A stretch of 64,000 bases of DNA from Carboxydothermus hydrogenoformans Z-2901 (GTDB taxonomy: Bacteria; Bacillota; Z-2901; Carboxydothermales; Carboxydothermaceae). The DNA is taken from positions 1,710,001 to 1,774,000 of the forward strand of contig NC_007503.1 of assembly GCF_000012865.1 (NCBI RefSeq), given 5' to 3'. The notes under the pieces are model-generated. The model searched no databases, was not told where the DNA came from, and saw nothing but the letters and a program-made list of their open reading frames with translations. Positions 4,371 through 43,389 of the stretch are shown in pieces (the stretch's first letter is position 1; every line of letters starts with the position of its first letter). A program made the translations under genes and the position numbers.

Positions 4371-4811
4371 TTAACTCTGGCCTACTAACTCCACTTTGCT
4401 TACTCCATCCATTTGGCTTAACGCTTCTAAAAGCTCCTCTATACTCACCTTCATTTCTTCGGTTTCTATGCTGATGGTTACATTGGCAATTCCTCCCAAG
4501 GGCAGGTTTTGATTAATTGTTAAAACGTTTCCCTGGTACTGGGCGATAAAGTTCAAAACTTTAGATAGAACCCCGGCCCGGTGTTCCAAGTTTAACGCCA
4601 AAGTAATAATTTTTCCCGAAGCTTTATGGTAAAAGGGAAAAACCCCGTCTTTATACTTATAAAAAGCGCTCCGGGAAATCCCCACCTTTTCCACCGCCTC
4701 ATTGACCGTAAGCTCCGGCCTTTTGCTAAGTAACTCCTTGACCTCGGCGGTTTTCCGGATGGCTTCCGGAAGAATGTCCACAGCCACCAGTAAAAATTTG
4801 GTTTTTTTCAT
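4371..4811 (-). CDS. ACT-domain protein of the PheB/UPF0735 family
   Basis: A 146-residue protein with an N-terminal helical segment that looks like a small helix-turn-helix (VNEAVEKVGISRSAFYKYKD, about residues 37-56) and a C-terminal ACT domain (LALNLEHRAGVLSKVLNFI onward). Relatives in Firmicutes usually sit upstream of hom or next to pheA and are annotated as PheB/YszB. Here it is the first gene of the threonine operon, so a regulatory, amino-acid-sensing role is likely, but it is inferred and no ligand can be read from the sequence. Confidence 0.85.
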   Translation of the reverse strand: MKKTKFLLVAVDILPEAIRKTAEVKELLSKRPELTVNEAVEKVGISRSAFYKYKDGVFPFYHKASGKIITLALNLEHRAGVLSKVLNFIAQYQGNVLTINQNLPLGGIANVTISIETEEMKVSIEELLEALSQMDGVSKVELVGQS

Positions 4812-4865
4812 CTTCCTACCCCTCTATGTCCTTGTAGGGTGGATTTTTATCCGTAATTGGTAGAC

Positions 4866-4894
4866 ATTATAACATTGTTTTCCCCGTTTGACAA
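4866..4894 (-). promoter_or_regulatory. Sigma-A promoter of the threonine operon
   Basis: On the minus strand TTGTCA (4889-4894), a 17-base spacer and a perfect TATAAT (4866-4871). It lies about 55 bases upstream of the ACT-regulator start and downstream of the terminator of the toxin-antitoxin pair, so the ACT-hom-thrCB-lysC operon has its own strong housekeeping promoter. Confidence 0.85.
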
Positions 4895-4916
4895 GATGTT
4901 TTGGTAAATTTACGCA

Positions 4917-4952
4917 TAAAAAAACAACCTGCTTTAAATTAAAGCAAGTTGT
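4917..4952 (-). terminator. Intrinsic terminator after the PIN-domain gene
   Basis: Reading the minus strand, a 12-base stem (ACAACTTGCTTT with AAAGCAGGTTGT, one wobble pair) closes on an AATT loop and is followed by seven U residues. It ends the toxin-antitoxin transcript before the threonine operon promoter. Confidence 0.88.
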
Positions 4953-4981
4953 AATCACTTACCGTAATATCATAAAAAATC

Positions 4982-5353
4982 CTACTTGGCAAAATAAATT
5001 ACTCCCGGTAAATCTTTAAAATGCTGGTCAGAAGTCACCACCCGACAACCAAAAGCTGAGCCAGTAGCATAAATAATAGCATCAGCCATAGGTAAGCCAT
5101 AACGAATAGCTACCTCAGCAGCTCCCAGAGCCAGGTTGATATCTAAAGGAACTATTTTTGTTTGCTGCATTTGAGCGGCAATAAGTAAAGCTTTCTCTTT
5201 TCCCTGTTCTTGCCAAATCTTTTTTGTTACTTCATAAATTACAATTGCAGGTGTAAGTATCTCCTCCGGTTTTTTAAAATAAGGAGCGAAATCTTCTGCC
5301 AGCGGACCATCAGCAAGGAATTCAAGCCACCCACACGAATCTATAAGAATCAA
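4982..5353 (-). CDS. PIN-domain ribonuclease toxin, VapC-like
   Basis: A 123-residue PIN-fold protein, probably the endoribonuclease toxin of a type II pair. The acidic metal-binding residues are visible: Asp in MILIDSCGW, Glu in VIYEVTKK, Asp in PMADAIIYA and Asp in VTSDQHF. It starts at a TTG that overlaps the stop codon of the upstream AbrB-like gene by 4 bases, so synthesis should depend on translation of the antitoxin. The RNA target cannot be told from sequence. Confidence 0.85.
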   Translation of the reverse strand: MILIDSCGWLEFLADGPLAEDFAPYFKKPEEILTPAIVIYEVTKKIWQEQGKEKALLIAAQMQQTKIVPLDINLALGAAEVAIRYGLPMADAIIYATGSAFGCRVVTSDQHFKDLPGVIYFAK

Positions 5354-5559
5354 AACCGTTCCTCCTCATCCCGCTCAATATTTGTATCCATACCCCGTAA
5401 GAAACCACGCATTTCAGAAAGCGGACGGCTTGGAATTAAACGTATACTTCCATTTTCCACAAGGACATGTAAGCGCTGTCCTTTCTTTATTCCAAGGGTT
5501 TTACGGATTTCAGCCGGAAGCACTATTTGGTACTTACTGGAAACTATCACTTCTGCCAT
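5350..5559 (-). CDS. AbrB/MazE-type antitoxin of the PIN-domain toxin
   Basis: A 69-residue protein with the swapped-hairpin AbrB DNA-binding fold (VIVSSKYQIVLPAEIRKTLG) and an acidic, arginine-containing tail suited to binding a toxin. The start at 5559 is chosen because an AGGAGG lies 9 bases upstream; an ATG at 5577 would put that site inside the gene. Such proteins normally repress their own operon and neutralise the toxin. The next gene overlaps it by 4 bases. Confidence 0.83.
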   Translation of the reverse strand: MAEVIVSSKYQIVLPAEIRKTLGIKKGQRLHVLVENGSIRLIPSRPLSEMRGFLRGMDTNIERDEEERF

Positions 5560-5632
5560 CAAAACAAACCTCCTCATACTTAAACCCTATTGTTAATATA
5601 AATGTATACCAAAAAAGTAAAGCCGTCAATAC

Positions 5633-5662
5633 AAAAACCCGCTCCCTTTAAAGAGCGGGTTT
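5633..5662 (-). terminator. Intrinsic terminator after spoIVA
   Basis: On the minus strand AACCCGCTC and its complement GAGCGGGTT form a GC-rich stem followed by five U residues, starting 4 bases after the spoIVA stop codon. It isolates spoIVA from the toxin-antitoxin pair. Confidence 0.9.
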
Positions 5663-5666
5663 CTCG

Positions 5667-7145
5667 CTAAATAATGATACAGATTAAACCGCCGCCGCCA
5701 TCGTTGACAATCCGCTGGAGGGTCTCCTGAAGTTTGACCTGGGCATTTTCCGGCATCCGGTGGAGCTTGTTTTGAATACCTTCCCGGACTAAGTCGTGGA
5801 GGGACTTACCGAAAATTTCCGACTCCCAGATTTTCTTGGGATTTTCTTCAAACTCTTTTAACATATACTGGACCAGCTCTTCGCACTGCTTTTCGGTACC
5901 GATAATCGGAGTAATCTCGGTGGTAATATCGGCCCTGATGATGTGCATGGACGGAGCACTGGCCCGAAGTCTTACGCCAAAGCGGTTACCCTGGCGGATT
6001 AATTCCGGCTCTTCCAGGTTCATTTCTTCCAGCCGTGGAGTGACTACCCCGTAGCCGGTTTCCTTTACTTCTTTTAAGGCAATCGCCACTTTATCGTATT
6101 CCTTCTTAGCGTAGCTTAATTCTCGCATGAGCCGCAGTAATTCGTGCTCGCCTCTTATGGCATAGCCGGATACTTCCTCTAAGACCCTGTAGAACAAACC
6201 TTCCTTAGCGGCAACTTTAATGCTTGCCTGCCCGGTACCCATATCAAGGTTTTCTAATTCAACGTTATCCACATACTCGTTTTCGGAAAGTCTGGCCACA
6301 GCGTTGTTGATATCTTTTACTTTTTTCACATTTTTTAAAGCTTCATGCACCGCTGACGTAAACTTTTCTTTTAACCAGTGGGTTGCATCTAACTCTTCAA
6401 TCCACTGCGGCAGGTTAAAATTGACATCGACCAGCGGAAATTCATATAAGAGATTCTCTAAAAGGGCGTTTAAGTCATTTATGCCTATCTCCGCTACATC
6501 AACCGGCACTACCGTAACGTCGTACTTTTGCTCCAACTCTTCCGCCAAAGCTTTAGTTTCCGGAGCATTGGGGTGGGTTGAGTTTAAAACTATAATAAAC
6601 GGCTTTTCTAACTGCTTTAACTCCTCTACCACCCGTTCTTCCGCCGCCAGATAATTTTCCCGGGGGATATCGGTAATAGAACCATCGGTAGTTACCAGAA
6701 ACGCCATAGTAGAGTGATCGGTAATCACTTTCCGCGTTCCGATCTCCGCCGCTTCCGCGAAGGGAATTTCTTCATCAAACCAGGGGGTTAAAACCATCCG
6801 CGGACCGTCTTCTTCCTCATAGCCCAAAGCTCCCAAAACCGGATAACCTACCACATCCACCAAGCGAACGTTAGCTTTTACACTGCTGTTGATATTAATT
6901 TCGATAGCTTCGTTGGGAATGAATTTTGGTTCGGTGGTCATAATCGTTCTTCCGGCACCGCTCTGGGGCAGCTCATCCTTGGCCCTTTCCCGGTCGTAAA
7001 CGTTTTTAATGTTGGGTAAAATTAAAAGTTCCATGAATTTTTTAATTAAGGTAGATTTCCCCGTCCGAACCGGACCAACTGCGCTAATATATATATTGCC
7101 AGAAGTTCTTTGGGCAATATCCCGAAATAAATCCACCCTTTCCAT
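5667..7145 (-). CDS. spoIVA: Stage IV sporulation protein A, spore coat ATPase
   Basis: The coat morphogenesis ATPase that polymerises on the forespore surface and anchors the coat. Residues 24-32 are the Walker A motif (GPVRTGKST), a GTPase-like region follows with the VDVVGYPVLGALGYEE segment, and the C terminus ends in the hydrophobic GGGLICIII typical of the family's membrane-targeting tail. The 492 residues are full length. It has its own terminator and a 108-base upstream gap. In Bacillus it is transcribed by sigma-E, but no convincing sigma-E site could be read here. Confidence 0.97.
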   Translation of the reverse strand: MERVDLFRDIAQRTSGNIYISAVGPVRTGKSTLIKKFMELLILPNIKNVYDRERAKDELPQSGAGRTIMTTEPKFIPNEAIEININSSVKANVRLVDVVGYPVLGALGYEEEDGPRMVLTPWFDEEIPFAEAAEIGTRKVITDHSTMAFLVTTDGSITDIPRENYLAAEERVVEELKQLEKPFIIVLNSTHPNAPETKALAEELEQKYDVTVVPVDVAEIGINDLNALLENLLYEFPLVDVNFNLPQWIEELDATHWLKEKFTSAVHEALKNVKKVKDINNAVARLSENEYVDNVELENLDMGTGQASIKVAAKEGLFYRVLEEVSGYAIRGEHELLRLMRELSYAKKEYDKVAIALKEVKETGYGVVTPRLEEMNLEEPELIRQGNRFGVRLRASAPSMHIIRADITTEITPIIGTEKQCEELVQYMLKEFEENPKKIWESEIFGKSLHDLVREGIQNKLHRMPENAQVKLQETLQRIVNDGGGGLICIII

Positions 7146-34866: not shown

Positions 34867-34872
34867 TATTCT
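34842..34872 (-). promoter_or_regulatory. Putative sigma-G-type promoter for the germination permease
   Basis: On the minus strand AGAATA (34867-34872), 18 bases, then CATACTA (34842-34848). Bacillus sigma-G sites are TGMATA-N17/18-CATAMTA, so only one position differs. The -35 overlaps the lysA stop codon. Expected start of transcription is about 34835, within the terminator loop. Sigma-E sites share part of this -10, so sigma-E is an alternative. Confidence 0.65.
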
Positions 34873-36208
34873 AATACATGGTAACTACCTTGCGCGTTTT
34901 TAAATGGGCGGGGATTAAATCGTGGCTTAACAGGTCGTCATAAGTTTCTCGGCGAACAATCAGCTCCGCCTTTCCCCCACCAACTAAAACCATGGCCGGT
35001 CGGGGTAAACGGTTATAATTCATCGCCATGGAATAGTTGTAAGCTCCGGTATTGCTAACCAATAAAAGGTCTCCCGGCTTAATTTCCGCCAATTCAATAT
35101 CCCAAATCAACATATCCCCTGACTCACAGCACTTACCGGCAATTGAAACTAACTTGACCGGCTGGTCGTTAGCTTTATTTGCCACTATTGCTTCGTACTT
35201 AGCCTGATATAATGCCGGTCGGGGATTGTCACCCATCCCACCGTCCACCGCAACATAGGTTCTAATTCCCGGGATATCTTTAATTGCCCCAATCGTGTAT
35301 AACGTACTTCCCGCGGGACCGGCAATTGAACGTCCCGGCTCTACTATCACCTTTGGTACTTTAAGTCCGAGTTTTTGGCACTGACTTTCTAAAGTTGTAA
35401 AAATAGTCTCCGCCATTGCCGCCACCGTAGGAGGGTTATCACCTTCAGCATAGTAAATACCAAGACCGCCGCCTAAATCCAATTCTTCCGTCATAAAACC
35501 GGTAGCTTTAAATACTTCAGCCATAAAGGCGGTCATGACTTCTACCGTGTGAGCAAAAGACTCAAGTTCAAAGATTTGCGAGCCTATATGACAGTGAAAA
35601 CCTTTTAATTCAATTCCGTCCAGTTCCAAGGCCCTTTGGGCCGCATCCATTGCCTGACCGGTTTCAATGGGAAAACCAAATTTACTGTCAATTTGCCCGG
35701 TTTTAATATACTCATGGGTATGGGCCTCAATCCCGGGACTAACCCTTAATAATATTGGTTGCCGTACTTTATAGCTTTTTGCAATGTCATTTAAAAGATA
35801 CAGTTCGTAAAGATTATCCACCACAAAGCGGCCTACTCCGGCTTCAACTCCAAGCCTGATTTCCTCAGGGCTTTTGTTGTTGCCATGGAAATACACCTTG
35901 TGCAAAGGAAAGTCTGCTTTTATAGCAGTATAAAGTTCGCCACCGGACACCACATCAAGCCCCAAACCCTCTTCTTCAACTAAACGGCAAATTGCAGTAG
36001 TTAAAAGGGTTTTTCCCGCATAAATCGCCAGTGACCCGGGGTGTTTTTGGGTGAAGTTTTGGTAGTATTCCCGGCAGTTTTTTCGAAATTCTTCCTCATC
36101 TAAAATATAAAGTGGAGTACCGAACTCCCGGGCCAAATCTACCGTATCGACACCGCCTATTTCTAAATGACCTTTTTCATTTACCCTCATCGTACCGGTA
36201 AAACGCAT
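34871..36208 (-). CDS. lysA: Diaminopimelate decarboxylase
   Basis: Last step of lysine synthesis. It is a fold-III PLP enzyme with cofactor lysine 66 in AIYAGKTLL, plus HCHIGSQI, the phosphate-binding EPGRSIAGPAG and the active-site CESGDML. The start at 36208 (ATG behind GGGGGAG) gives 445 residues. A frame open to 36424 would code through the riboswitch and is rejected. A lysine riboswitch with terminator precedes it and an unusual terminator follows it. Confidence 0.97.
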   Translation of the reverse strand: MRFTGTMRVNEKGHLEIGGVDTVDLAREFGTPLYILDEEEFRKNCREYYQNFTQKHPGSLAIYAGKTLLTTAICRLVEEEGLGLDVVSGGELYTAIKADFPLHKVYFHGNNKSPEEIRLGVEAGVGRFVVDNLYELYLLNDIAKSYKVRQPILLRVSPGIEAHTHEYIKTGQIDSKFGFPIETGQAMDAAQRALELDGIELKGFHCHIGSQIFELESFAHTVEVMTAFMAEVFKATGFMTEELDLGGGLGIYYAEGDNPPTVAAMAETIFTTLESQCQKLGLKVPKVIVEPGRSIAGPAGSTLYTIGAIKDIPGIRTYVAVDGGMGDNPRPALYQAKYEAIVANKANDQPVKLVSIAGKCCESGDMLIWDIELAEIKPGDLLLVSNTGAYNYSMAMNYNRLPRPAMVLVGGGKAELIVRRETYDDLLSHDLIPAHLKTRKVVTMY

Positions 36209-36230
36209 GCCATCTCTCCCCCTTATAAAT

Positions 36231-36275
36231 AATAAAATATTGCGGGCCCTTGGTATTTCCCCAAAGACCCGCAAT
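36231..36275 (-). terminator. Riboswitch-controlled terminator of lysA
   Basis: On the minus strand ATTGCGGGTCTTTGG pairs with CCAAGGGCCCGCAAT (two wobble pairs) around a short loop that belongs to the antiterminator, followed by a U/A-rich tract ATTTTATTATTT. It is the OFF state of the lysine riboswitch expression platform. Confidence 0.88.
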
Positions 36276-36506
36276 TGGCATGCGGCAATAGCGAGGAAAT
36301 ACCTCAGCTCCCAGCAAGGTAGCGCTCCACCCGCTAAAACGGGTGACAGTCCTATACCTGTTCGGCATAGGCCCAACCCCTTACGTCCGCTACCGTAAGG
36401 GATTTCGGCGAAGGCCCCTTTCACCGGGCAGCATTAACCTGCGGGGTTTTTGCCCGGTTACTCTTGACCATCCGCACCTCTACCTCACCTCAAAGAGATG
36501 AGGTAT
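36231..36506 (-). promoter_or_regulatory. Lysine riboswitch (L box) controlling lysA
   Basis: The 361-base gap between lysA and the activase gene is mostly a lysine-sensing leader. Core signatures are visible on the minus strand: GAGGTGCGGATGG with AAGAGTA, GGGGCCTTCGCCGAA, ACTGTCACCC and GGTGGAGCGCTACC. The outer stem P1 is ATACCTCA (36499-36506) with TGAGGTAT (36299-36306). An antiterminator, GGTATTTCC (36295-36303) with GGAAATACC (36252-36260), competes with P1 and with the terminator at 36239-36275. Lysine should favour P1 and termination. Confidence 0.93.
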
Positions 36507-36543: not shown

Positions 36544-36573
36544 ACTATAACATTAAACTTCTAAGTTCGTCAA
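36544..36573 (-). promoter_or_regulatory. Sigma-A promoter of the lysine riboswitch-lysA unit
   Basis: On the minus strand TTGACG (36568-36573), 18 bases and TATAGT (36544-36549), about 40 bases before the riboswitch. The -35 overlaps the stop codon of the upstream activase gene, so lysA is transcribed on its own. Confidence 0.8.
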
Positions 36574-37556
36574 CCTATCCCCGCTAATTTTTTGTTATTC
36601 ATCTGACTGTAACGGCCGCAGCGGTCATTTAAATAACCCACTACCTCGTAATCTTCATATATTTTAACCACTTCACAAAAGTTAGGACAGTTTTGGCATT
36701 CAAAATTCTCGGTTTTTAATTCGGCATCTTTCACGTTAAAGCCCTTGAACCTGGTTTTATAAGGCTGTTTTTCCCGCTCAAAAGCTGCAATTAACGCTGC
36801 TCCTAAAGCTCCCATTACCTCAAAATAGGGCGGCACAATTACTTCGGTACAAAGCGCCCGCCTAAACGCTTCTCGCATGGCAATGTTGGCCGCCACACCG
36901 CCCTGAAAAACAATTTTATCGTAAAGCTTTTTGCCCTTAGCTAAATTGTTTAAATAGTTTCTTACCAGAGCATCGCAAAGGCCCGCGAGAATATCTTCAA
37001 TACTTAAGCCCAATTGTTGCTTGTGAATCATATCGGACTCGGCAAATACCGCACACCGCCCGGCTATCCGCACCGGATTCTGGGCTTTTAACGCTATTTC
37101 TCCAAATTTTTCAATAGGAATGTTAAGCCTTTGCGCCTGCTGGTCCAAAAACGAACCGGTACCGGCCGCACACACGGTATTCATCGCAAAATCGGTTACT
37201 ACACCATCTTTTAAGAGAATAAGCTTGGAATCCTGTCCACCAATTTCTAAGATGGTTCGTACTCCGGGTACCAAATAGTTAGCAGCCACCGCATGGGCAG
37301 TTATTTCGTTTTTCACGGTATCTGCTCCTAACACCAACGCTGCCAACTGCCGGCCGCTTCCGGTTGTCCCCACCCCTAATATTTCTTCTTCTTTGATTCG
37401 GTCGTAAATTTTTCTTAAACCTTCTTTTAAGGCAACAAGAGGCCGGCCGTTCGTTCTCAAATAAATTGCTTCCAGAATTTCCTTTTCTTCATTAATCACC
37501 ACTAAATTGGTACTTACCGAACCTACATCAATTCCCAGAAATACGCCTTTTTTCAT
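36570..37556 (-). CDS. BadF/HgdC-type ATPase, 2-hydroxyacyl-CoA dehydratase activase-like
   Basis: An ASKHA-fold, ATP-dependent electron donor. It has FLGIDVGSVSTNLVV, GVGTTGSGR, EIGGQDSKL and GGVAANIAM. Cys129 (NTVCAAGTGSF) and Cys168 (IAGRCAVFAESD) match the two cysteines with which HgdC dimers bridge a [4Fe-4S] cluster. An extra tail (about 280-328) adds C-x2-C-x3-C (287, 290, 294) and Cys313, absent from the 260-residue HgdC. It overlaps the next upstream gene by 29 bases. It should drive low-potential electrons into the two neighbouring proteins; the final substrate is unknown. Confidence 0.85.
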   Translation of the reverse strand: MKKGVFLGIDVGSVSTNLVVINEEKEILEAIYLRTNGRPLVALKEGLRKIYDRIKEEEILGVGTTGSGRQLAALVLGADTVKNEITAHAVAANYLVPGVRTILEIGGQDSKLILLKDGVVTDFAMNTVCAAGTGSFLDQQAQRLNIPIEKFGEIALKAQNPVRIAGRCAVFAESDMIHKQQLGLSIEDILAGLCDALVRNYLNNLAKGKKLYDKIVFQGGVAANIAMREAFRRALCTEVIVPPYFEVMGALGAALIAAFEREKQPYKTRFKGFNVKDAELKTENFECQNCPNFCEVVKIYEDYEVVGYLNDRCGRYSQMNNKKLAGIG

Positions 37557-38643
37557 GATTTCCTCCTTTCTGGCGAAAACTTAAAAGGTCACAAAAAGCT
37601 TCCAACCGGGTGATAAGCCCGGCCTCACCGGTATGTTCATCAACCACCAAAGATAAGACCGGGATATCCTCGACTTCGCTTACCGCCGGCAGAACTGCTT
37701 GAGCAACAATTTCCGGCATACAGGTAAAAGGTAAGAGCTGAATTACCCCATCGAATCCCTGTTTTTTTAAGTATTTAACTCCGCCTACCGTTTCCTGCCC
37801 GTGTCCCCCCACAAAATGGCAAAGAAAGGGCGGTGCTTCCTTCACAATTTCTTTATGCCGGCTATAGTTTTTAAAAAGTCCCAGAAAAAGGTGGTCGTTC
37901 ACCCATTCACTTAAATAAATGGTGCGTTGCACTTCCACTCCCAGGTTGCCAAGATATCGTTCGATATTAAAGTTGGTAAAGGGTTCTAAGAGGGTAAAAA
38001 TCTCCCCAACCACTCCTATCTTTAACACCTTGCGGGCCAAATCCATGGGTATCCTTGCCAAAGCCACGACTGCTTGATTTACCGCTTCTTCGATTTCCTT
38101 TTCCTCTCGAGCCCGATTTAAATTTTGCAAAAACTCCTGCCACACCCGGTCAGTTGCCCCCTTGGTAATTTCCCGGGCTCTAAAAAAGGCTACTTTTTTT
38201 TCAATTTCATCGGCAGCTTTTATTTTTAAAAATCCTTTTTTAACCGCCCTTATAACCTGAAAAATTGGTTTATTATCGGTAATTTTTTTTAGTTTAGCGA
38301 TAAACTCCATAATGTTTCTTTCGGGTGGTTCTAACACTAAAAGGTCATAATTAATCCCCAAATCCTTTAATATTTCCTGCTCCACATATGCGTAATAACC
38401 AAAGCGGCAGGGGCCAGTTCCTCCTGCCATGAGGATTGTATCGGCACCCAGTTCATACGCCTCAATAAAATTCCCGAGGTTAAGCTTTAAAGGCAGGCAG
38501 GCAAATTCCGGTCCGTACTTAGTACCCAGAGTTAAGGTTTTTTTGGTAATGGGCGGAGGTAGGACCACTTCTACCCCCAGTTCTTCTAACATTGCTTTTA
38601 CCCCTATAGCCATATTACCCATGTGCGGGTAGGTAACTTTCAC
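37528..38643 (-). CDS. DUF2229/HgdB-like iron-sulfur protein, larger subunit
   Basis: 371 residues from a GTG with AAGGAG at 8 bases. It resembles the CoA-dehydratase-D/DUF2229 group. Cysteines 49 (EFACLPLKL), 79 (GTGPCRFG) and 308 (LPFTCMPE) line up with three cysteines in the neighbour at 38615, and both end with the shared motif DEHTGEAGLxTRLEAF. Three cysteines is the number that ligates one cubane in HgdA/HgdB-type proteins. It overlaps both neighbours (35 and 29 bases), which suggests a fixed ratio. The reaction is unknown. Confidence 0.78.
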   Translation of the reverse strand: MKVTYPHMGNMAIGVKAMLEELGVEVVLPPPITKKTLTLGTKYGPEFACLPLKLNLGNFIEAYELGADTILMAGGTGPCRFGYYAYVEQEILKDLGINYDLLVLEPPERNIMEFIAKLKKITDNKPIFQVIRAVKKGFLKIKAADEIEKKVAFFRAREITKGATDRVWQEFLQNLNRAREEKEIEEAVNQAVVALARIPMDLARKVLKIGVVGEIFTLLEPFTNFNIERYLGNLGVEVQRTIYLSEWVNDHLFLGLFKNYSRHKEIVKEAPPFLCHFVGGHGQETVGGVKYLKKQGFDGVIQLLPFTCMPEIVAQAVLPAVSEVEDIPVLSLVVDEHTGEAGLITRLEAFCDLLSFRQKGGNHEKRRISGN

Positions 38644-39595
38644 CGGCAAAACTCCTTTCCACCGTCATATCCCAAAAAGCTTCAAGACGGGTTACAAGTC
38701 CCGCCTCACCGGTGTGTTCGTCAATGGTAAGGTTTAAAAAAGGTAAGGAAAATTTTCTTCTCAAATACCGGCCCGTAAGTTCGGTTATTATTGAATCAGG
38801 TCCGCAGCCAAAAGAATTTAAACTTATTATCCCTTTTAACGGGTAATTTTCAGCGAGATAAATACTGCCACCAAAGTTTTTAATCGCAAAACTCCAAAAG
38901 GGTTTTTTGGGTAGAATCCCAGCTTTTTTTACCGCTTCCGCAAAGGGAACGTTATCAGGAGTTAAAACTTCTCCTCCAAACCGGCGAATTTTTTTTATTA
39001 AATCCATACTGGCATGACGGTCATTAATATTGTAGGCATGACCCACCACCGCAAAAAGCGGTTTCTTTAAGTCCGGCACATAATTTTGCTTCCCATCAAT
39101 TAAATCCAGCGGTTGATATCCAAGGTACTTTTTTTGCAAATAAGCTTTTTGATTTTTCCAGGCTGCATAAATCGCTCGCATTATTTTCATACCGTTTGGC
39201 GTAATTTTTTTCCCAAGAACATAAACCCCCCGGTAAAAATCTTCTCCCTTTCGATAGGCCGTTAAGTCATGGGAAAGAACATTTTGGGCTTTTAAGCGAA
39301 AGATAATCATTTCGGGCAATCCCAAAAATTTCGGGCAGATGTAAGTACGCCGGTATTCACTAACATAGCGGGGTATAAAGAGATAATCTACCCGGTCTTT
39401 TAAAAACCGCGCATGGCCGAAAAAAACTTTAACCGGCAAACAGGCATCATCTACCGCCGCTTCTACCCCCAAGTTAAGGGTCTCCTTATCGGTAGGTTTT
39501 GAGGTTACAACATCTACTCCCAACTCTTGGAAAAAAGTTTCCCAAAAGGGATAATAATCGTAAAAATATAAACCTCGCGGAATACCTATTTTCAT
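38615..39595 (-). CDS. DUF2229/HgdB-like iron-sulfur protein, smaller subunit
   Basis: A 326-residue paralogue of the protein at 37528. It opens with IGIPRGLYFYDYYPFW, typical of DUF2229, and has cysteines 52 (DDACLPVKV), 87 (YICPKFLG) and 264 (SFGCGPDS), plus the C-terminal DEHTGEAGLVTRLEAF motif. It probably pairs with that paralogue, like HgdA with HgdB. No acyl-CoA transferase or dehydratase-pathway enzyme is nearby, so ordinary hydroxyacyl-CoA dehydration is not supported. First gene of the trio, 49 bases after spoVAE. Confidence 0.75.
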   Translation of the reverse strand: MKIGIPRGLYFYDYYPFWETFFQELGVDVVTSKPTDKETLNLGVEAAVDDACLPVKVFFGHARFLKDRVDYLFIPRYVSEYRRTYICPKFLGLPEMIIFRLKAQNVLSHDLTAYRKGEDFYRGVYVLGKKITPNGMKIMRAIYAAWKNQKAYLQKKYLGYQPLDLIDGKQNYVPDLKKPLFAVVGHAYNINDRHASMDLIKKIRRFGGEVLTPDNVPFAEAVKKAGILPKKPFWSFAIKNFGGSIYLAENYPLKGIISLNSFGCGPDSIITELTGRYLRRKFSLPFLNLTIDEHTGEAGLVTRLEAFWDMTVERSFAGESYLPAHG

Positions 39596-39644
39596 CTAAC
39601 CACCCCATCTTTAAGAGCATTTCCAGGGAAAAAAATTTTTATAC

Positions 39645-40001
39645 CTACCCCTTGGGTTTAAAGATAAGGGCAATTATATAACCGGCAATAATCGCCACCG
39701 AAATACCCGTGGCGGTATTTGCTATTCCGCCCCCCAAAAGCCCTAATATCCCTTTTTGTTTAAATCCTTCTATTGCTCCCTGCGTCAGTAAATGCCCAAA
39801 ACCAGTTAATGGTAAAGTTGCCCCGGTACCGGCAAGTTCTACTAATTTTTCGTAAACTCCAAAACCGGAAATAAGTGCACCGGCAGTTACAAAGCTAACC
39901 AAAACATGGGCAGGAGTCACCCGAAAGCTTGTGAGATCCATCATTAACTGGCCAATCACGCAAATTACTCCTCCAACCAGAAAACTTAATAGAAAATCCA
40001 T
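39645..40001 (-). CDS. spoVAE: Stage V sporulation protein AE
   Basis: A 118-residue membrane protein (SpoVAEb type) with about three to four hydrophobic helices and the GGVICVIGQLMMD and GFGHLLTQGAIEGFKQKG motifs. The start at 40001, with a G-rich site 6 bases upstream, is preferred to the frame open to 40022. Part of the dipicolinate channel of the spore, together with SpoVAC and SpoVAD. Confidence 0.92.
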   Translation of the reverse strand: MDFLLSFLVGGVICVIGQLMMDLTSFRVTPAHVLVSFVTAGALISGFGVYEKLVELAGTGATLPLTGFGHLLTQGAIEGFKQKGILGLLGGGIANTATGISVAIIAGYIIALIFKPKG

Positions 40002-40012
40002 CTTCATCCCCC

Positions 40013-41005
40013 TCAGTAACATTCAAAGGATACTGCATGAGCAATTACCGGTATGGACATTCCCTGCTGGGATGTAACTTGAGAAAGTAAAGCACCCGTA
40101 CCTATACCCAAAAATTTATGAATCTTTCCCTGACTTAACTCGTTAAAAACGTAGCCAGCGGTAACTAAAGCCGAACAAGCTGTACCGCTACCTCCGGCAT
40201 TTACCTGCTGATCCGGTCGATAAATCATGATTCCGCAATCGGTAAGCCTTTGACCAAAGTTGATATTACGTTCCTGTAAAAGTTTAACCAGGATTTGCCA
40301 TCCAAACCGGGCTAAATCTCCGGTTGCCATTAAATCATAATAATCGTAAGACAAACCCGTTTCTTTAAAGTGGGCAAGTAAAGTGTCAAAAGCTGCAGGA
40401 GCCATAGCCCCACCCATGTCCGAAGGATCAAACATACCGTAATCCAACGCTTTGCCCACCGTAACCCGGGGAATTTTAATTTTGCCTTCTCCTTCCCCCA
40501 AAACCACCGCGGCCGCACCGGTAACCGTCCACTGGGATGTAGGCGTTTTCTGAACCCCCTGTTCTGTAGGATTACGGTACTGCCGTTCAACGGTGGCGTA
40601 ATGACTGGAAACACCCACCAGTACTTTTTTGGCAAAACCACCGGCTATTAACATAGCCCCCAGGATTAGTCCTTCGTAAAAAGTAGCACAAGCATTATAT
40701 AATCCAAAAAATGGAATCCCCAAACTTTTTGCAACAAAATTAGCCGAAATAATTTGGTTTAATAAGTCCCCGGCCAAAAAAAAGTCCACTTCTTCCTTTT
40801 TAACAGAAGCTTTTTGTAAAGCCATTTCGACTACTTCCAAAAACATTTTTTGCTCCGCTTTCTCCCAGGTATCCTCATAATAATAAAGGTTGTTAATAAT
40901 CTTATCAAAATAGGTAGCCAGGGGGCCTTCCCCTTCTTTTGGTCCAGCTATAGTTGCATAACCCAATACTACCGGCGGATTAGCAAATTCCCGGGTTTGC
41001 CTCAT
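40013..41005 (-). CDS. spoVAD: Stage V sporulation protein AD
   Basis: A 330-residue thiolase-fold protein; in Bacillus SpoVAD binds dipicolinic acid and is needed for its uptake into the forespore. Visible are FGLYNACATFYEGLILGAML, the SHYATVERQYRNPTEQG loop and GSGTACSALVTAGYV. It overlaps spoVAC by 4 bases and is followed 11 bases later by spoVAE. Confidence 0.95.
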   Translation of the reverse strand: MRQTREFANPPVVLGYATIAGPKEGEGPLATYFDKIINNLYYYEDTWEKAEQKMFLEVVEMALQKASVKKEEVDFFLAGDLLNQIISANFVAKSLGIPFFGLYNACATFYEGLILGAMLIAGGFAKKVLVGVSSHYATVERQYRNPTEQGVQKTPTSQWTVTGAAAVVLGEGEGKIKIPRVTVGKALDYGMFDPSDMGGAMAPAAFDTLLAHFKETGLSYDYYDLMATGDLARFGWQILVKLLQERNINFGQRLTDCGIMIYRPDQQVNAGGSGTACSALVTAGYVFNELSQGKIHKFLGIGTGALLSQVTSQQGMSIPVIAHAVSFECY

Positions 41006-41445
41006 AATTTTCCCAGCCCCCTTAAAATAATTGCCACAATAAGAGAGCTAAGTACCCCGTAAATAATAACCGGACCGGCTACGGTAAATAGTTTCGCCCC
41101 AACACCGAGAACCAAGCCTTCCTGTTTATGTTCCAAAGCCGGCGATACCATGGAGTTCGCAAAGCCGGTAATGGGAACGATTAAGCCGGCACCAAAAATC
41201 CGCACCAAATCATCATAAATCCCGGTACCCGTTAAAATTGCCGAGATTAAGATAAACACCACACTTACAACGGTGTAACCGTCTTTTTCCGATATGCCGT
41301 AGCCTCTTAAAAAATGAAACAAAACTTCTCCTAAAAGACAAACAAAGCCCCCCATTAAAAAAGCCAATAAGCAGTTTTTTAGTACCGGCGGCTTAGGTTT
41401 AATTTTTTCTACAGTTTTTTGATACTCATTTTTATCAATAGCCAT
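41002..41445 (-). CDS. spoVAC: Stage V sporulation protein AC
   Basis: A membrane protein of about 147 residues that forms the mechanosensitive part of the spore dipicolinate channel. It has LAFLMGGFVCLLGEVLFHFL, the GAGLIVPITGFANSMVSPALEHKQEG loop and a hydrophobic C terminus. The ATG at 41445 follows GAGGTG. It opens the AC-AD-AE cluster. The spoVAA, AB and AF genes of Bacillus are absent. Confidence 0.95.
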   Translation of the reverse strand: MAIDKNEYQKTVEKIKPKPPVLKNCLLAFLMGGFVCLLGEVLFHFLRGYGISEKDGYTVVSVVFILISAILTGTGIYDDLVRIFGAGLIVPITGFANSMVSPALEHKQEGLVLGVGAKLFTVAGPVIIYGVLSSLIVAIILRGLGKL

Positions 41446-41480
41446 CACATTTTCACCTCAAAATATAATTTTCCCCTTAA

Positions 41481-41516
41481 AAAATAAAAAAATAACGGAG
41501 GAAAACCTCCGTTATT
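41481..41516 (-). terminator. Intrinsic terminator after the dodecin gene
   Basis: On the minus strand AATAACGGAGG pairs with CCTCCGTTATT around a TTTT loop and is followed by a seven-U run. It overlaps the last codons of the dodecin gene and lies upstream of spoVAC. Confidence 0.92.
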
Positions 41517-41706
41517 CCACATAAGCAACTTTTACATTGGCCTTATATTCTACTACCCGTCCGCCTTCCACATTAGCGGTAAAATTTAAAATTTCTACTC
41601 CGGTTACCGTCCCCAGGGACCGCGATGCTTCATTTACTGCGGTTTGTACCGCATCCTTCCAGCCGGTTGGTGATTCTCCCACTAATTCGGCTACTTTTAC
41701 ATGCAT
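41512..41706 (-). CDS. Dodecin-family protein lacking the flavin-stacking tryptophan
   Basis: A 64-residue beta-alpha-beta-beta protein of the dodecin family (KVAELVGESPTGWKDAVQTAV, then ANVEGGRVVEYKANVKVAYVE), which forms 12-mer shells. Bacterial flavin-binding dodecins have a DWFEV-like motif with a stacking tryptophan, but here it is TGVEI. It therefore may bind another ligand or none. It lies between sigF and spoVAC with its own terminator. Confidence 0.88.
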   Translation of the reverse strand: MHVKVAELVGESPTGWKDAVQTAVNEASRSLGTVTGVEILNFTANVEGGRVVEYKANVKVAYVE

Positions 41707-41821
41707 TGCTGATTCCTCCTTAAAAAATTTTTTTCCATTTATTAAAATGAACCCTGGACCGGCTATTTATTAAGGTAATATTTTATTGTTTTGTTATTTT
41801 TTGTATTTTAGGGAAATAAAT

Positions 41822-42595
41822 TTAACTCTCGTTCAGGTACCGTTTTAATTTTAAGAGGGCCTGTCTTTCAAGCCTTGAAACCTGTACCTGGGAAATTCCG
41901 AGAGTTCTGGCAATCTCCATTTGGGTTTTTTCTTTAAAAAAGCGGTTAATTAAAATATACCGCTCCCGCGGTTCTAACTTGCTTAGCACTTCTTTTATTG
42001 AGATATTTTCTAAAAGGGTTTGTTCTTCATCACCCTCCTGCTTAATCTGATCTAACAGGTATATCGGGTCTCCATCATCCTGATGAACCGTTTCAAAAAG
42101 TGAAGCCAAGCTCTGTCCCGCTTCTAATGCTTCAACAATCGCCTCCCGCGAGTAACCAAGAGTTTCTTCCAGTTCGGCAATTGTAGGTTCCCGGCCTAAC
42201 TTTACGGTAAGCGCTTCTTTTTCTTTTAAAATCTTTACCCCCAGTTCTTTGGTAGAACGACTAATCCGGATAGCCTGGTCATCTCTAAGAAAACGACGAA
42301 TTTCCCCCACAATCATGGGAACCGCATACGTGGAAAACTTCACCTGTTGTTTTAAATCAAATTTATCAATGGCTTTAATTAGCCCAATCGTCCCAATTTG
42401 AAACAGATCTTCAACTTCGTAGCCTCGGTGTAAAAAACGTTCCACCACTTTAAAGACCAATTTTAAATTACAATTGATAAGTTTTTCCCGGGCAGCCACA
42501 TCTCCCTTTTGGGCTTTTTCTATTAATTCTTTTATTTCCTGTTCACCGAGCCTTGGGAAGCGGGGTAAATTCATAGAAGAAAAACGAAAGTTCAC
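41822..42595 (-). CDS. sigF: RNA polymerase sigma-F factor
   Basis: The first forespore-specific sigma factor. Region 2 (LIEKAQKGDVAAREKLINCNLKLV, ATYAVPMIVGEIRRFLRDD), region 3 (RSTKELGVKILKEKEAL) and region 4 (ARTLGISQVQVSRLERQALL) are intact. It is the third gene of the spoIIA operon; its GTG start overlaps the spoIIAB stop by 4 bases, though an ATG at 42574 is also possible. It should be inhibited by SpoIIAB. Confidence 0.97.
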   Translation of the reverse strand: MNFRFSSMNLPRFPRLGEQEIKELIEKAQKGDVAAREKLINCNLKLVFKVVERFLHRGYEVEDLFQIGTIGLIKAIDKFDLKQQVKFSTYAVPMIVGEIRRFLRDDQAIRISRSTKELGVKILKEKEALTVKLGREPTIAELEETLGYSREAIVEALEAGQSLASLFETVHQDDGDPIYLLDQIKQEGDEEQTLLENISIKEVLSKLEPRERYILINRFFKEKTQMEIARTLGISQVQVSRLERQALLKLKRYLNES

Positions 42596-43020
42596 ACGGT
42601 TCTGTTATCTTTTAAAATTCTTTTAAATAAAATCACTTTTGTCCCCCGCTCCATAGGCACGATTTCCACCCGATCCATTAAACTCTGCATAAAGAGAAAG
42701 CCCAAACCCGGATGCTCATCCTCCGGGTCCAATACCATTTTTTCCCTGATTTTTTCCCGTTCAATACCTTTGCCAAAATCTATTACTTCAATATACATCC
42801 CCTCCTCGGTAAAATAACCATTAACCTTTATTTCTCCTGGATTATTACCGTAGCCGTGAACGATGCTATTGGTAACCGCCTCGGATACCGCAACTTTAAT
42901 ATCGTCCAAGTCGGGAAGGGTTAAATCCTTCTGGGCAGCAAAAGCCGCCACCACAATCCGTACCAAACCGATATTTTCTTTTAAGGCGGGAATCGTCAGG
43001 TTAAAATAATTATGCTTCAT
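42592..43020 (-). CDS. spoIIAB: Anti-sigma-F factor, serine kinase
   Basis: A 142-residue GHKL-type kinase that binds sigma-F and phosphorylates SpoIIAA. It has the N box (DIKVAVSEAVTNSIVHGYG), G1 (VIDFGKGIE) and G2 (HPGLGFLFMQSLMD) ATP-site motifs. It overlaps spoIIAA by 11 bases and sigF by 4, so ratios should be set by translation, as in Bacillus. Confidence 0.97.
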   Translation of the reverse strand: MKHNYFNLTIPALKENIGLVRIVVAAFAAQKDLTLPDLDDIKVAVSEAVTNSIVHGYGNNPGEIKVNGYFTEEGMYIEVIDFGKGIEREKIREKMVLDPEDEHPGLGFLFMQSLMDRVEIVPMERGTKVILFKRILKDNRTV

Positions 43021-43357
43021 AAGCTTTTTCCTCCCAAACTTCCTCTTCCCGGGAAATTCCTTTCATAATCCGGAAAAAACCGGAAAGTTCTAAGATCTTT
43101 TTAATCTTTTCATTGGTTGAAGCTAAATATACCCTGCCCCCAAGACTTCTTATTTTTTTAAACCGTCCCAGGATCACCCCAAGTCCGGAGCTATCGATAA
43201 AGTCAACGTTCTTTAAATTAAAGACAATATCTTTTACCGGGTAATTTTCAATTATTTCATCAACTTCCCGGCGCAGCCGGTCTGCCTCCTTTAAATCTAC
43301 CTCTCCGGTTATCCGAACAAATAACACCTTATTTTTAACTTCCTTTTCCACTTCCAA
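43010..43357 (-). CDS. spoIIAA: Anti-anti-sigma factor SpoIIAA
   Basis: STAS-domain protein that frees sigma-F by binding SpoIIAB. The phosphorylated serine lies in the DFIDSSGLGVILGRFKKI motif. The start is not certain: a TTG at 43357 or a GTG at 43351 sits behind a GGGGGGA and matches the usual N terminus, while an ATG at 43384 would give extra residues not seen in relatives. It follows a sigma-H-type promoter. Confidence 0.95.
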   Translation of the reverse strand: MEVEKEVKNKVLFVRITGEVDLKEADRLRREVDEIIENYPVKDIVFNLKNVDFIDSSGLGVILGRFKKIRSLGGRVYLASTNEKIKKILELSGFFRIMKGISREEEVWEEKAYEA

Positions 43358-43389
43358 AAAAATCCCCCCAAAAATGTGTTTCAAAACAA

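Follow-up and report, generated by a model that had tools for sequence, protein, structure and literature searches.

The three genes that lie between spoVA genes and lysA in the analysed window, a stretch of 64,000 nucleotides from Carboxydothermus hydrogenoformans Z-2901, probably encode a forespore-expressed and anaerobe-specific ATP-dependent iron-sulfur reductase, a sporulation version of the “electron gun” enzymes. Both the enzyme class and the link with sporulation are well supported by comparative genomic evidence; forespore expression, the cluster types and the direction of electron flow are what we infer beyond that.

The host genome consists of one contig of 2,401,520 bases, and C. 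islandicus was the nearest named relative found, with DUFb 93% identical. Re-examination of the window bore out the genes, coordinates, overlaps and cysteine numbers of the original prediction throughout (Table 1). All three genes are transcribed from the minus strand in the order DUFb, DUFa, activase (39595 to 36570), with an overlap of 29 nt between DUFb and DUFa and another of 29 nt between DUFa and the activase. The GTG start of DUFa is located 8 nt after GGAG and two codons downstream of the mechanically called TTG start.

Table 1. Module genes and surrounding features; positions are those of the window.
Feature	Position	Strand	Characteristics
lysA	34871..36208	-	conserved downstream neighbour
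lysine riboswitch	36312..36490	-	RF00168, 128.7 bits; between activase and lysA
ACT (HgdC-type activase)	36570..37556	-	328 aa; bridging Cys129/168; tail Cys287/290/294/313; TIGR00241 198 bits
DUFa (P0002, diverged DUF2229 paralogue)	37528..38643	-	371 aa; GTG start; Cys49/79/308; PF09989 1.8e-11
DUFb (P0003, full-length DUF2229 protein)	38615..39595	-	326 aa; Cys52/87/264; PF09989 6.9e-52
sigma-G-like promoter candidate	39615..39644	-	GTATA-N18-AATGCTC; in front of DUFb
spoVAE	39645..40022	-	ends 49 nt before DUFb; conserved neighbour
spoVAD	40013..41005	-	
spoVAC	41002..41448	-	
dodecin gene	41500-41722	-	PF07311 9.5e-23; between sigF and spoVAC
spoIIAA-spoIIAB-sigF	41822..43384	-	same strand, upstream in conserved cluster

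The scores of DUFb (176.7 bits) and DUFa (44.6 bits) against PF09989 (DUF2229) were both above the gathering cut-off of 29.4 bits, and those against PF06050 (HGD-D), 17.9 and 18.3 bits, were both below the cut-off of 28.4 bits and covered only the end of that family. By these scores, the two proteins are a sister group of PF06050, not PF06050 proper. Profile-profile comparison revealed DUFa and DUFb to be homologous to each other (hhalign E 1.8e-39) and related to the HGD-D proteins of the same genome (E 1.5e-10 and 7e-13), and profile searches of the PDB retrieved DCCP (2e-8) and HadC (2e-4) with DUFb, and HadC and DCCP with DUFa. Furthermore, AlphaFold2 models computed from small alignments of 5-6 sequences (pLDDT 77.6 for DUFb and 76.1 for DUFa) were compared using Foldseek. 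The DUFb model matched HadC best (3o3n_B, 4e-9), along with DCCP and BzdNO, and the DUFa model matched DCCP (7yzm_A, 1e-9) and HadC (2e-9); top matches of both subunits were HadC, DCCP and BzdNO, at TM-scores of only about 0.57. The assignment of both paralogues to the benzoyl-CoA reductase/2-hydroxyacyl-CoA dehydratase/double-cubane fold is thus predicted from profile, fold and cysteine-spacing comparisons and is well supported by them. It should be added that their common EHTGEAGLxTRLEAF end is the form taken in DUF2229 proteins by the C-terminal TR-x-x-AF motif, which is found throughout the HGD-D superfamily. The third protein, predicted as an HgdC-type activase with bridging cysteines, passed the cut-offs of TIGR00241 (198.2 vs 125.4) and PF01869 (181.3 vs 31.5); its PDB relatives were 4eht, 9gai, 1hux and 7yyl_E, and it is related to HadI, HgdC, MbdQ and DCCP-R.

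Apart from the cysteines given in Table 1, DUFb has no others, DUFa has two at positions 275 and 351, neither conserved, and the activase has two at positions 194 and 236. The original prediction had named orthologues devoid of the cysteines as evidence against it, and these residues proved to be near-invariant in about 60 homologues: C52/C87/C264 of DUFb were kept in 66/66, C49/C79/C308 of DUFa in 68/68 and the bridging C129/C168 of the activase in 60/60 homologues, with the predicted four-cysteine tail of the activase present in 59 of 60. In these alignments, such conservation is far beyond chance. Moreover, profile alignments placed the three cysteines of each paralogue upon the three invariant cysteines of HGD-D. 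In BzdO, a single [4Fe-4S] cluster with an open site is bound by Cys95/128/380 within one subunit, and the double-cubane protein BzdN requires six cysteines (PMC11971306). The ligand spacing in DUFa and DUFb resembles that of BzdO, and neither subunit has the six cysteines of an [8Fe-9S] double cubane, with three conserved in each and the distal ligands missing. Because the three cysteines correspond to the HGD-D set and to the single-chain site of BzdO, each paralogue likely keeps the proximal three-cysteine site only and would hold one open-site [4Fe-4S] cluster. By the same analogy, neither a double cubane nor a cluster split between DUFa and DUFb is likely. A cluster shared between both paralogues, as suggested in the original prediction, or a double-cubane centre could draw upon the 3 + 3 conserved cysteines in paired subunits; we nevertheless regard either as highly improbable, since each subunit has the full set of three, aligned with a proximal site that holds its [4Fe-4S] inside one chain, and P0003 contains three cysteines altogether.

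The gene overlaps, from which a fixed complex had been predicted, were complemented by natural fusions in other organisms. Some relatives encode DUFb-DUFa single chains of 718-735 aa followed by the activase (loci L112, L122, L123), one locus (L120) encodes a 1415-aa chain with the order ACT-ACT-Cys tail-DUFb-DUFa, and other relatives have a 976-aa chain together with a separate 425-aa DUFa; in the fusions, the cysteine tail stays between the activase and DUFb. Overlaps and fusions support one working unit, and the heteromeric ATP-dependent iron-sulfur reductase of the original prediction remains the reading favoured by families, fold, cysteines and fusions.

The position between spoVA genes and lysA, correctly given in the original prediction, is not incidental and is conserved across many families. 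At 31 of the examined loci, which represent more than 25 families, the module is preceded on the same strand by spoIIAA-spoIIAB-sigF-spoVAC-spoVAD-spoVAE, and spoVAEa and spoVAF often intervene between spoVAE and DUFb. Within a sample of 250 genomes, DUFb was located no further than 7 kb from spoVAD in 62 of the 89 genomes with both genes listed, where well below 5% would be expected by chance in genomes of 2-5 Mb. The gene that precedes such linked modules is usually spoVAE or spoVAF, and the one that follows is often lysA; at 18 loci lysA was found downstream with the same orientation, in several of them within 450 bp. Intergenic gaps from spoVAE or spoVAF to DUFb are often shorter than 30 nt or negative, and in two module-free genomes (L127, L128) spoVAF is directly followed by lysA, as an empty site. 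Judging by this conserved neighbourhood, the pathway of the module is most likely anaerobic sporulation or germination. The lysine riboswitch that separates lysA from the module gives lysA its own control; at 36208-36424, the mechanically called lysA reading frame begins inside the riboswitch region, and translation most likely starts at 36208 with MRFTGTMRV. The dodecin gene is preceded by a sigma-G-like TAATA-N18-CATTTTA (41772) and followed by a terminator-like hairpin. Four linked loci contain a member of a dodecin-like family, and a flavin-binding protein is an odd component of a spore cluster.

The distribution of the module across genomes was consistent with this placement. spoVAD was present in 172 of 178 genomes with the module vs 42 of 72 others (Fisher P 1.7e-13, a value that ignores kinship). 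Five of the six module genomes without spoVAD hold only unlinked-clade or distant copies; the remaining one (G076), the sole spoVAD-negative genome with a linked-type copy, is a fragmented assembly of 220 contigs and has dpaA. No linked-type copy was found outside genomes with sporulation genes. Genomes with a strong haem-copper oxidase, 17 from 10 families and 14 of them with spoVAD, were all devoid of the split module. Among spoVAD-positive genomes, the module occurred in 0/14 with a strong haem-copper oxidase vs 172/200 of the rest (P 1.7e-11, likewise ignoring kinship). It should also be added that some spore-formers have no module, so that sporulation as such does not depend on it.

In Clostridioides difficile, spoVA is an operon of the sigma-G regulon (PMC3789822). 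A sigma-G-like pattern was fixed after a first look at the regions upstream of spoVAC and DUFb and was then tested on 40 further loci. It occurred upstream of linked DUFb genes in 5 of 30 regions of the first set (null mean 0.15) and in 6 of 40 of the new set (null mean 0.32, with no more than 5 in any of 500 shuffles), and in 0/19 regions upstream of unlinked DUFb. Five of these 11 matches came from one family (f12), the independent cases numbering about seven families, and most linked loci have no strict match. The candidate in the window is one base off the pattern and is by itself not significant (P 0.42); the congener G002 matches the pattern fully (AATGCTA). A search of the window alone returned no significant promoter. 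From the strong synteny and from the enrichment of promoters across linked loci as a group, forespore expression of the linked module is likely.

A second complete three-gene module is encoded in the host genome (G000:C1:1260729-1263774; L008:6729-9774), next to a NUDIX gene and a two-component system. In the maximum-likelihood tree of DUFa, 20 unlinked copies including this one formed one clade with support of 99/97; many genomes carry both linked and unlinked copies. Linked and unlinked labels changed 9 times on the tree vs 22 in shuffles, and the linked copies are clustered, not strictly one clade. The unlinked or single-chain DUF2229-activase proteins share all three parts and their cysteines with the linked module; they differ in having no spoVA linkage, in forming a separate clade and in residues at the cluster side. 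The residues separating linked from unlinked copies are F81 and M309 of DUFa, beside C79 and C308, and V55 (near C52) and H186 of DUFb. This suggests that linked copies differ in the active site, with the caveat that cysteine-adjacent positions are the most conserved and so the easiest to detect as differences. Around the unlinked copies, no strongly conserved neighbours hinting at a substrate were found. At four loci (L072, L097, L098, L102), spoVA-linked DUFb-DUFa pairs have no adjoining activase and therefore would need one from elsewhere in the genome; the unlinked module of these genomes has one, and perhaps one activase serves both pairs.

The existence of a second, very similar set of three genes away from spoVA in the same genome is a ground for considering the module a general metabolic redox system, whose spoVA neighbourhood would represent an old conserved gene order with no role in sporulation, and the non-sporulation genes lysA, trpS, scpA, scpB and deoB are likewise conserved around the linked module. 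We consider this rather unlikely: sigma-G-like promoters precede linked copies only, the linked type is confined to genomes with sporulation genes, the distances to spoVAE or spoVAF are often those of closely spaced or overlapping genes, and fixed differences stand beside the cluster cysteines. The spoVA genes serve dipicolinate uptake, and the location between spoVA and lysA could hint at an enzyme of dipicolinate synthesis. That reading is very improbable and was dropped, as dpaA is also present in 149 of 178 module genomes, the host included; moreover, the synthase reaction is an oxidation, for which an ATP-driven reductant is unneeded.

A catabolic enzyme that acts on a CoA thioester, either a 2-hydroxyacyl-CoA dehydratase or an aryl-CoA reductase, would have the same fold and activase partner, as in HadBC-HadI and BzdNOPQ, and is nonetheless improbable here. 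As predicted, no catabolic CoA pathway adjoins the conserved module, which has neither a CoA transferase nor an acyl-CoA dehydrogenase or ligase as a neighbour; the HGD-D Pfam score is under the cut-off (18 vs 28.4), and the host genome has separate true HGD-D loci. The substrate itself may still be a CoA ester. HadBC with its activase HadI (PDB 3o3m-o, 4eht) resembles the module in being a heterodimer of paralogues with three-cysteine [4Fe-4S] sites and an HgdC-type activase, whereas the module has no CoA pathway nearby, shares 11-16% identity with it (Foldseek), scores below the HGD-D cut-off and has the extra activase tail. The class I benzoyl-CoA reductases BzdNOPQ and MbdONPQ (PDB 8s02, 9gai) are similar in the BzdO cysteine spacing (PMC11971306); unlike the module, BzdN has a double cubane, and no aromatic pathway is found beside the module. 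DCCP:DCCP-R (PDB 6eno, 7yyl) has the fold, the activase partner, the TR-x-x-AF motif and the proximal cysteines in common with the module, but DCCP forms a homodimer that holds a double-cubane cluster, whereas the module is a predicted heterodimer without distal cysteines, with a cysteine-tailed activase and in a spoVA setting. A DCCP:DCCP-R homologue is encoded in the host genome at C1:421832-423594. Besides it, three more loci with HGD-D and activase genes were found (G000:C1:272927-274630, 751865-754842 and 1053577-1056242), and thus several ATP-driven iron-sulfur reductases coexist in this small genome.

In the sporulation reductase that we favour, the module would be made in the forespore under sigma-G, through read-through from spoVA or from a promoter of its own. 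The activase dimer would hold one [4Fe-4S] cluster between its protomers, bound by Cys129 and Cys168 of each, and its four-cysteine tail is probably a further metal site that may serve as the entry for electrons from ferredoxin. ATP hydrolysis would push single low-potential electrons into the DUFb-DUFa heterodimer, where each subunit would carry a [4Fe-4S] cluster on three cysteines with one iron open, and the substrate would be bound and reduced there. The most likely task would be a low-potential reduction that anaerobes need in order to form or revive their spores, directed either at a small substrate of the spore core or at the reductive activation of an enzyme sensitive to oxygen.

Lists of sporulation genes have largely been drawn from Bacillus subtilis, and such lists have probably missed this module as a component of spore formation or revival in anaerobes. 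A literature search on DUF2229, COG3580/3581 and the activase names, leaving aside the DCCP papers, the double-cubane review and the C. hydrogenoformans genome paper, found no sporulation function, and the activase and module COGs have no mention in a 2012 survey (PMC3533761). More tentatively, it may be that a forespore-made, ATP-driven low-potential reductase is common to anaerobic spore-formers and absent from aerobic ones, as a core and uncatalogued component that builds or restarts an oxygen-sensitive, low-potential spore metabolism. If true, the sporulation of anaerobes has a redox step without a counterpart in Bacillus subtilis, the uncharacterised DUF2229 family can be assigned to a cell type and a time and given a testable phenotype, and nitrogenase-like ATP-driven electron chemistry extends into bacterial cell development.

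Stray homologues were also observed. At locus L134 (genome G226, about 4739-6094), spoVAF is followed by no more than a 75-aa piece of an activase reading frame and by a weak DUFb match (2.8e-17), which may represent a module in decay, spoVA itself being kept. On a viral contig (L118:211-1338), phage head-tail genes are directly preceded by a solitary DUFb homologue, which has the three cysteines and carries a lysine-rich tail; this homologue is either phage-borne or the product of a chimeric assembly.
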